A DNA stretch of 64,000 nucleotides from Leadbetterella byssophila DSM 17132 (GTDB lineage Bacteria; Bacteroidota; Bacteroidia; Cytophagales; Spirosomataceae), in NCBI RefSeq assembly GCF_000166395.1, contig NC_014655.1:2480001-2544000 (forward strand), read 5' to 3'. The notes beneath the pieces are model-generated. The model had not been told where the DNA came from. It saw only the letters and a program-made list of their open reading frames with translations, and ran no database searches. Position 1 is the first letter of the stretch; each line of letters starts with the position of its first letter. Positions 56,030 through 57,962 of the stretch are shown here, piece by piece. The position numbers and the translations under genes were made by a program.

Positions 56030-56461
56030 ATGAACGAACTAACACTAAACTCTGCCGCAAAACAATATCTAAGAGATTCCATCAAATGGGGGAAATTCCT
56101 TGCCATTGTAGGGCTTGTCATCACTGGTTTTATCGTTTTAGGAGCCATCTTTGCGGGTACTATCTTAAGCGTCCTTGCAGAAAGATCCACTGAATGGGAA
56201 AGTATTCCTTCGGCAGCCATAACCTTTATCTACTTATGCATGGCTGCAGTCTATTTTTTCCCATGCTGGTTCCAATTAAAATCCTCTCAGAAACTGCAAG
56301 TTGCCCTAGATCAAAACAACGAGGAGGAGTTAGCGGAGGGATTAAAATACATGAAATATAATTACCAAATCTTTGGGATCATGACTGCCGTGGTTCTGGC
56401 TTTCTATGTATTGGTGATCATCTTTGCCATCATCGGTGGAGGTATAGCTGCTGCACTATGA
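56030..56461 (+). CDS. DUF5362-like membrane protein
   Basis: 143 residues, three to four membrane segments. The pattern LRDSIKWGKFLAIVGLVITGFIVLGAIF at the N terminus, [27 protein letters not shown] in the middle and a C-terminal GGGIAAAL helix follow the DUF5362 family, common in Bacteroidota. Function unknown. Its stop overlaps the next start (ATGA, 56458-56461). Confidence 0.8.
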   Translation: MNELTLNSAAKQYLRDSIKWGKFLAIVGLVITGFIVLGAIFAGTILSVLAERSTEWESIPSAAITFIYLCMAAVYFFPCWFQLKSSQKLQVALDQNNEEELAEGLKYMKYNYQIFGIMTAVVLAFYVLVIIFAIIGGGIAAAL

Positions 56462-56712
56462 CAACATTTTCTAAAATAAGTAGTAAGATTCTTGCTAAGG
56501 TTTGCAAAGCACTCGCCTTATATGGCTTAATGACACTTATCCTTCAAATATTATTCTATTATGTGGCCTATCTATTGGCTTTTGCAGCCCATATAGAATT
56601 GAATAAAAACATAAGCCCATCAAGCTTTGGCACAAATCTCATATTCTCCATTTTTCTCCTTGTGACATGTAGTTATCTATATTTCTTAGGCGATAAATGG
56701 GAAAAGCAATAA
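56458..56712 (+). CDS. Small membrane protein of unknown function
   Basis: 84 residues with two predicted membrane helices (about 20-45 and 60-78). No family recognised. The ATGA overlap with the preceding gene and the normal start support it as a real, translationally coupled gene. The next gene follows after 37 nt. Confidence 0.65.
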   Translation: MTTFSKISSKILAKVCKALALYGLMTLILQILFYYVAYLLAFAAHIELNKNISPSSFGTNLIFSIFLLVTCSYLYFLGDKWEKQ

Positions 56713-56749: not shown

Positions 56750-57301
56750 ATGGATATATATGTAAAAAATATGGTTTGCCCCAGATGTATTTCTGCGGTT
56801 GAAGGTATTTTAAAACGACAGGATTTACCCTATGAATCAGTAGATTTAGGCCATATTGTGCTTAAATCTATCCTAAATGAAGAACAATCTCAATCTTTAG
56901 ATCAAGAGCTCTTATCTGCAGGATTCGTAAGAATAGACGATAGAAAGAAACAATTGACAGAACAGATCAAAAATATCATAGTGAAGATCGTTCACGGCCA
57001 AGAGGAGGACAAGGAAAAACTATCCGAACGCTTGAGGCAAGAGCTACAGTTGGACTACAAGCATCTCAGCACTGTGTTTAGCGAAGTAACCGGCCAAACC
57101 ATAGAAAAATTCTATATCCAACACCGAATTGAACGTGTGAAAGAGCTTATTTCCTATGACGAACTTAGCTTGAAGGAGATTGCTTTCCAGATGGGGTATA
57201 GCAGTGAAGCCTACCTCAGCAATCAATTCAAAAAGATCACTGGACTAACGCCCTCCCAGTTCAAATCCTCAATACAAAGAAAATCATTAGACCAAATATA
57301 A
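56750..57301 (+). CDS. AraC-type regulator fused to a heavy-metal-associated-like domain
   Basis: 183 residues. Residues 1-70 resemble a heavy-metal-associated (HMA) ferredoxin-like domain with a CPRC pair (C10, C13) in NMVCPRCISAVEGIL; residues about 80-180 are an AraC helix-turn-helix domain (FYIQHRIERVKELISYDELSLKEIAFQMGYSSEAYLSNQFKKITG). It lacks the cupin or periplasmic sensor usual for AraC proteins. The CxxC could bind copper, zinc or another soft metal, making this a one-component metal sensor; metal and targets are inferred. It is 4 nt upstream of the deformylase gene. Confidence 0.88.
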   Translation: MDIYVKNMVCPRCISAVEGILKRQDLPYESVDLGHIVLKSILNEEQSQSLDQELLSAGFVRIDDRKKQLTEQIKNIIVKIVHGQEEDKEKLSERLRQELQLDYKHLSTVFSEVTGQTIEKFYIQHRIERVKELISYDELSLKEIAFQMGYSSEAYLSNQFKKITGLTPSQFKSSIQRKSLDQI

Positions 57302-57305
57302 GAAT

Positions 57306-57962
57306 ATGTGGAGAGTACTATTCCTAATCATTAGCCTTCCCGCTTTGGCCCAGTTCCCTAAACTCAGCCATGGATTCAACGAACAGGAAAAAGCTTTAAT
57401 TCTTAGTGGTGATACTACTAAGATGATGAGAATCACACAAACCACTGACCCGGACGACTTACAGATCCTAAGTGCCATCTCTCAGGATATCTCACCGGAT
57501 GATCCCCTACTACCACTCTTGGCTAAACGTATGCATTTGGCCGTAAAACAAGCTGGAGGCGTAGGTATTGCTGCCCCGCAGGTAGGAGTCAACAGAAATG
57601 CCATTTGGGTTCAAAGATTTGATAAACCCGGACAGCCTTTTGAATTCTATATTAATCCTAAGATCACCTGGAAATCAGAGTTGCTCCAACTAGGCGCTGA
57701 AGGTTGCCTGTCTATCCCTGATACCAGAGATAATGTAGTGAGAAGCTATGCTATACAATTGTCCTACTCTCAATTAAACGGAGCTCATCATACTGAGGTG
57801 ATTGAAGGCTTCACTGCCGTCATTTTTCAGCATGAAATAGACCATTTGTACGGAATACTCTTCCCTCAAAGAGTAGATGAACAAAATACCCAAGAATTCA
57901 AGAAATCAGAAGAGAAAGGAAAGGTGCTCTTATACAATAAACAAAACAATAAGAGACTTTAA
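57306..57962 (+). CDS. def: Peptide deformylase-like metalloenzyme with apparent signal peptide
   Basis: 218 residues. All three deformylase motifs are intact: GVGIAAPQVG (85-94), EGCLS (132-136, metal ligand Cys134) and QHEIDH (175-180, ligands H176 and H180, catalytic E177). Unlike cytoplasmic deformylases it begins MWRVLFLIISLPALAQFP, which looks like a signal peptide with an ALA-Q cleavage site, and has an extra N-terminal region of about 40 residues before the catalytic core. It may therefore be exported. Co-transcribed with the HMA-AraC gene (4-nt gap) and convergent with lacI (4-nt overlap). Confidence 0.9.
   Translation: MWRVLFLIISLPALAQFPKLSHGFNEQEKALILSGDTTKMMRITQTTDPDDLQILSAISQDISPDDPLLPLLAKRMHLAVKQAGGVGIAAPQVGVNRNAIWVQRFDKPGQPFEFYINPKITWKSELLQLGAEGCLSIPDTRDNVVRSYAIQLSYSQLNGAHHTEVIEGFTAVIFQHEIDHLYGILFPQRVDEQNTQEFKKSEEKGKVLLYNKQNNKRL

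Follow-up and report, generated by a model that had tools for sequence, protein, structure and literature searches.

The window, a stretch of 64,000 nucleotides from Leadbetterella byssophila DSM 17132, carries a gene for an exported-type peptide deformylase (PDF) of 218 aa (57,306–57,962, + strand). The encoded protein is probably a periplasmic enzyme that removes the N-formyl group from peptides and protein N-termini outside the inner membrane. It belongs to a widespread, seemingly undescribed family of exported PDF copies. The assignment was based on the PF01327 match and on membership of the exported-PDF clade.

The ORF starts with ATG, 4 nt past the stop of an AraC ORF (56,750–57,301). 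An in-frame TAG lies upstream at 57,288–57,290, with zero alternative starts between it and the ATG at 57,306. PF01327 matched residues 43–194 with 121.7 bits against a cut-off of 22.8. The NCBIfam model TIGR00079 scored 110.9, above its cut-off of 103.95, and NF001159 scored 116.7, below its cut-off of 125. The PDF core defined by PF01327 and by the Foldseek match 6jes_A (residues 43–194, 57,432–57,887, + strand) contains three motifs on the same strand. Motif I is GVGIAAPQ (residues 85–92, 57,558–57,581) and motif II is EGCLS with the presumed metal ligand Cys134 (residues 132–136, 57,699–57,713), both recognized from the sequence and the clade alignment. Motif III is QHEIDH with His176, Glu177 and His180 (residues 175–180, 57,828–57,845), recognized from the sequence and found in 90 of 90 clade rows. 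The catalytic motifs were therefore intact, as the earlier note had claimed. In the form of motifs I–III updated by PMC12690207, the window PDF has GVGIAAPQ, EGCLSI, and HEIDHLYG.

The three-dimensional structure of the window PDF was modelled with AF2 (pLDDT 90.3, pTM 0.85). Ten-residue pLDDT means were 63 and 57 for residues 1–20 and 90–99 for residues 21–200. The best Foldseek match to the model was 6jes_A (E 1.9e-16, 36% identity), and 50 of the 50 matches listed were PDFs. The best PDB match by sequence was 3uwa (E 7.8e-25). The fold is shared with the class I type b PDFs of Acinetobacter baumannii (6jes/6jf4) and Synechococcus phage S-SSM7 (3uwa), but these chains of 154–160 residues begin near the core and lack the leader and extension of the window PDF. 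PDFs act at the ribosome through a C-terminal helix. The tail of the window PDF after HExxH is 38 residues, with low AF2 confidence at its end; it is not short, and its length gives no sign of lost ribosome binding. Median tail lengths were 32 (11–38) in the clade, 41.5 (28–53) in ordinary PDFs, and 19.5 in the lipobox rows (20 rows, one misassigned).

The leader of the window PDF was judged from hydrophobicity, cut-site pattern, and relatives. The N-terminus, MWRVLFLIISLPALA followed by Q, has a hydrophobic core and an AxA-type cut site (ALA-Q), and residues 1–16 (MWRVLFLIISLPALAQ) are leader-like with the cut at ALA/Q. The best 9-residue Kyte-Doolittle mean was 2.78, reached in 300 of 20,000 shuffles of the protein. 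The hydrophobic, signal-peptide-like start ending in ALAQ that had been reported before was thus confirmed, and relatives have leaders or lipoboxes. The leader codons (residues 1–15) span 57,306–57,350 (+ strand); the predicted cut, A15/Q16, is consistent with the xQ ends and hydrophobicity in relatives. The claim of about 40 extra residues had to be corrected: 42 residues precede the Pfam core, of which about 15 are leader and about 27 are left in the predicted mature protein. These form a clade-specific N-terminal extension (residues 16–42, 57,351–57,431, + strand), recognized by I32 conservation and AF2 pLDDT. Sec export of the window PDF itself is predicted from the leader and the relatives.

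A PF01327 profile search of the 4.06-Mb genome found three genes: L001 (159.8 bits), L002 (155.1 bits), and the window gene. L001 and L002 show 29 and 28% identity, respectively, to the window PDF and share its family and catalytic residues, but they start at the core without a leader and lie on the opposite side of the branch separating the clade from ordinary PDFs. Since two leaderless PDFs are encoded elsewhere, the PDF gene in the window is supernumerary, and the further cytoplasmic-type def supposed in the earlier note does exist. The accessory PDFs of PMC12690207 (Vibrio cholerae Def2 and integron PDFs) are likewise extra copies beside a housekeeping PDF and are spread unevenly; that paper treats them as intracellular and ribosome-related, unlike the exported PDF proposed here. 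In its main text, "bacteroid", "lipoprotein", "flavobacter", and "chryseobacterium" are absent, and "periplasm" occurs once, for a cloning vector. The literature searched, which did not extend to most subscription papers or to bioRxiv preprints, described no PDF that is exported, secreted, periplasmic, or a lipoprotein.

Export signals were compared across the clade. N-termini were read in 94 rows, comprising 80 named loci, the window, and 13 from other genomes; five (L050, L055, L103, L110, and L035) were left out of the leader count. In the remaining 89, there is a Sec-type leader with an xQ end in 67, a lipobox (e.g., LFSC, LGSC, LTSC) in 20, and neither in 2 (L071:6614-7204 and L104:3562-4152, both Myroides). 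The best hydrophobic stretch had a median of 3.19 in the clade versus 1.32 in 46 ordinary PDFs. A hydrophobicity cut of 2.0 was passed by 86 of the 89 clade rows, with L051 narrowly below, versus 1 of the 46 ordinary rows. These values are biased towards leaders by the start codons of the 80 named loci, which were scored partly on hydrophobicity, and many rows are near copies, notably in Chryseobacterium (36 representatives under 80% identity).

Export evidence less dependent on the choice of start is given by eight intact leader-DUF1684-PDF fusions (L035, L048, L052, L054, L056, L057, L058, and L060), mostly from Sphingobacterium. In these relatives DUF1684 (PF07920) is the N-terminal fusion partner of PDF, and in L044 a DUF1684 gene with a leader ends 6 nt ahead of the PDF gene. 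The window gene lacks DUF1684, and two DUF1684 genes are found elsewhere in its genome; presence of DUF1684 was uninformative, with 8 of 8 genomes searched having it. The model of fusion L052 had a pLDDT of 83.7 and a pTM of 0.75, and the other four models reached 65–72. L047 by eye retains the end of a DUF1684 domain without a Pfam match. In 8 of the 9 pairs compared, the first 25 codons evolve faster than the remainder, a pattern typical of leaders. Non-ligand Cys was absent from 71 of 89 clade rows and from 27 of 38 rows in the comparison, no clear difference by which Cys depletion could mark export. The leaders, lipoboxes, and leader-DUF1684 fusions in relatives suggested that export is the common state of the clade. 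Export is well supported by this comparison, and the best reading of the sequences is that the window-type PDF is periplasmic and some relatives are lipid-anchored. Within the clade, the Myroides pair is the earliest branch (SH-aLRT 81 for the two Myroides rows, 84 for the remaining rows); export could thus be a derived trait, or Myroides could have lost it.

Deformylation is described as a ribosome step, and we know of no deformylase for protein ends reaching the periplasm. Bacterial signal peptides are described as ligands of formyl peptide receptors. According to PMC9099147, inner-membrane proteins largely escape deformylation. Periplasmic N-terminal ends would presumably lie out of its reach. 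In the proposed mechanism, the N-terminal leader would take the chain across the inner membrane and be cut after ALA (residue 15). Once in the periplasm, the mature protein would adopt the fold of a class I type b-like PDF. Cys134, His176, and His180 would serve as metal ligands and Glu177 as general base, roles that we take over from PDFs in general. N-formyl would be removed on the periplasmic face of the inner membrane, beyond reach of the two cytoplasmic PDFs. Candidate substrates are N-out membrane proteins with fMet ends, fragments of signal peptides that still carry the formyl cap, and peptides from foreign bacteria; the deformylated peptides would then be open to aminopeptidases.

With an exported PDF, formylated membrane-protein ends and signal-peptide fragments with a formyl cap would have another opportunity to be deformylated, and the bacterium would shed fewer formyl-peptides. 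Beyond the inner membrane, the cell may in this way complete or reuse proteins and peptides that bear a formyl tag. We infer the deformylase activity, metal, and substrate of the window PDF, and an Fe(II)-Cys site, which should be fragile outside the cytoplasm, counts against the exported-PDF reading. A broader proposal can be put forward tentatively: Bacteroidota and kin may possess a second, extracytoplasmic N-deformylation step, with secreted or lipid-anchored PDFs, DUF1684 as a partner, and a Cys-to-Asp change in Weeksellaceae for survival there.

The active site of the clade was compared with that of 46 ordinary PDFs of the phylum. Q92, E132, G133, L135, S136, Q175, H176, E177, and H180 are kept in 90 of 90 clade rows. 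The residues particular to the clade are R75, R104, D106, F169, and V172. R75, R104, and D106 are present in 90/90 clade rows, and Phe169 in 89/90. Position 130 is Gly in 71/90 clade rows and Phe/Tyr in 36/46 ordinary rows; position 172 is Val in 85/90 clade rows and Arg in 45/46 ordinary rows. The positions compared as the S1' region presumably correspond to the S1' pocket of E. coli PDF. The change of this region in the clade is read as a sign of a PDF with altered specificity. Since the region is unlike that of ordinary phylum PDFs, the substrate may not be formyl-Met.

The metal-ligand position of motif II is Asp in 47 and Cys in 46 of 93 rows. Asp (EGDLS) is the Weeksellaceae-type form, found in L037-L043, L061, L063-L070, and L072-L102, and the six Asp rows in the tree form one clade (SH-aLRT 100). 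In PMC10751367, the PDF Cys is described as oxidized along with its iron by peroxide. PMC7683392 describes S-nitrosylation of this Cys by NO and the failure of a C90S form to rescue zinc-stressed cells. An Asp at this position would avoid thiol chemistry and may alter the metal and the rate. Relatives with Asp instead of Cys amount to a natural experiment on the metal site of PDF, where the Cys is vulnerable to peroxide (PMC10751367) and nitric oxide (PMC7683392).

These residues also bear on a second reading, in which the exported protein has ceased to act on formyl-peptides and its PDF scaffold cleaves another periplasmic amide, e.g., a formylated sugar or small formamide. The invariance of R75, R104, and D106 outside the catalytic set, the altered S1' region (G130, V172), the DUF1684 fusion in 8 relatives, and the occurrence of Asp as metal-site residue in 47 of 93 rows are consistent with it. 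However, 90 of 90 rows retain the formyl-cleaving residues together with the segments GxG and EG(C/D)LS, and the S1' positions compared are mostly still hydrophobic or Gly. Cleavage of another amide is thus rather unlikely.

The protein could also be a cytoplasmic accessory PDF of normal length, with a leader that does not work or a start at Met40/Met41. The codons of Met40 and Met41 sit just N-terminal to the Pfam core, and the two Myroides relatives have no leader. However, the extension is predicted to be ordered (AF2 block means of 91 and 98 for residues 21–40) and is moderately conserved, with 27–59% identity between the window PDF and six relatives over residues 21–42. I32 is present in 86 of 90 clade rows, and 45 of 46 ordinary PDF rows have a gap there. 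Met occurs at the place of Met40/41 in 38 of 89 clade rows and in only 4 of 47 Asp rows, and an internal start was judged unlikely on these grounds. With the lipoboxes and leader-DUF1684 fusions of relatives, a cytoplasmic location is improbable.

The exported-type PDF is widespread but patchy. Among 59 genomes (own included), close relatives were found in G009 (72% identity), G005 (59%), G023 (47%), and G056 (43%), the next best match having an E of 2.8e-20. When 395 genomes of the phylum (own included) were searched with a 36-row profile, 10 carriers scored ≥251.7 bits; the next best scored 131.7, a gap of about 120 bits between clade and ordinary PDFs. A five-row profile picked the same 10 carriers, and 10 of 10 have a second PDF match. 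In the window's family, 4 of 200 genomes (own included) carry a clade PDF (≥272 bits), other matches listed scoring ≤118.8. In the Weeksellaceae-type family f24, the clade PDF is common (7 of the 8 genomes listed). The scan of named genomes found at least 581 relatives, which may include ordinary PDFs. The best 80 of these were analysed and include Sphingobacterium, Pedobacter, Parapedobacter, Flavobacterium, Chryseobacterium, Epilithonimonas, Elizabethkingia, and Kaistella, as well as Myroides, Reichenbachiella, Saprospiraceae, Polaribacter, Algibacter, Bacteroidales, and one Ignavibacteriaceae MAG.

In a 96-row tree, 45 exported-type rows lie on one side of a branch with SH-aLRT 98; the other 51 rows are 46 ordinary phylum PDFs, two from phages, and three from plasmids. 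The four window-family carriers were rejected as one clade (AU p 4.3e-5); taken with the patchy presence, this result suggests transfer. Within the window's genus no transfer is claimed, since the AU test did not reject a single clade for its three carriers (p 0.454). A phage or plasmid origin was rejected, every match in both collections being below 60% identity. Among the matches listed, 80 on viral contigs had 33–43% identity, with alignments starting at residue 35 or later except L269 (residue 24). The dN/dS of the clade gene was 0.037–0.113 in 7 unsaturated pairs, and by this measure the gene is under purifying selection. Presence in 4 of 200 window-family genomes argues against a housekeeping role, and patchy spread speaks for a niche function, e.g., peptide use, over a general one.

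Patchy distribution and the AU result would also suit a decoy or resistance factor binding actinonin-like PDF inhibitors while these are still outside the cell, and accessory PDFs can confer resistance to natural PDF inhibitors as described in PMC12690207. However, binding alone would not require a strictly conserved catalytic Glu, and the neighbours at 25 named loci do not suggest inhibitor biosynthesis. A decoy role is therefore very improbable, and catalysis on N-formyl substrates in the periplasm is preferred.

The gene upstream of the PDF gene (56,750–57,301, + strand) encodes an AraC-type regulator (HTH_18, 66.9 bits) with a CPRC HMA-like N-terminus; a 63% identical relative occupies the same place in G009. 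The earlier description of an HMA-AraC neighbour 4 nt upstream held for the spacing and the AraC domain; a CPRC motif is present, but HMA had zero Pfam matches on the window AraC at E ≤ 1. HMA was matched by 3 of 14 AraC family members (best 1.8e-4), and an hhalign comparison of the family with the HMA profile was weak (probability 17.7%). Farther upstream on the + strand are two possible operon members, an 84-aa hydrophobic ORF without a Pfam match (56,458–56,712) and a DUF5362 protein (56,030–56,461; PF17319, 26.2 bits, cut-off 25) with 50% identity to L005:1440-1895. The order DUF5362-AraC-def is maintained in G009 (congener locus L005). Promoters and terminators were about as frequent as in shuffles. 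Cotranscription of AraC and def is putative, as judged from the 4-nt spacing.

Relatives of the window AraC at E ≤ 1e-15 were found in 19 of 29 genomes, own included. L126-L139 hold a family of small CPRC-AraC regulators, often adjoining copper or heavy-metal genes. At 7 of these 14 other loci (L128 and L129 being the same sequence by eye), Pfam, run on metal-looking neighbours only, placed the AraC gene beside multicopper oxidase, P-type ATPase, RND, or HMA genes. A PDF gene stands next to AraC in G000 and G009 only, 2 of the 16 AraC loci fetched. At 25 named PDF loci, the neighbours are other than AraC and, by eye, without a common metal neighbour. Metal control of the window PDF gene is at most a fair guess. 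As a guide to the substrate, gene neighbourhood offered nothing widely shared save DUF1684, and the best-kept PDF neighbours look like genus-level synteny.

A ChaN-like gene was seen near the PDF gene in 30 Chryseobacterium-type loci (Pfam on L039 only). A haem-uptake-like cluster by eye lies upstream of the exported PDF at L063:67-6689. The ChaN/haem link of Chryseobacterium was set aside, as it is absent from Elizabethkingia L078. That the window PDF is a metal-stress or metal-handling protein under the HMA-like AraC regulator, with catalysis secondary, is scarcely credible: the AraC family adjoins metal genes at 7 of 14 loci and the ChaN-like gene lies near PDF at the 30 loci, behind the haem-uptake-like cluster in L063, but the AraC-PDF pairing occurs in 2 genomes only, zero common metal neighbour was seen by eye in 25 loci, and the Chryseobacterium synteny may be mere descent.

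Two minor observations were made at single loci. The Kaistella chaponensis copy (L103:8001-8282) ends after 93 aa, being either a broken gene or a sequencing error. At L115:4177-8555 and L121:4246-8624, a lipobox PDF directly follows a cluster that by eye consists of mreD, PBP2, and rodA.
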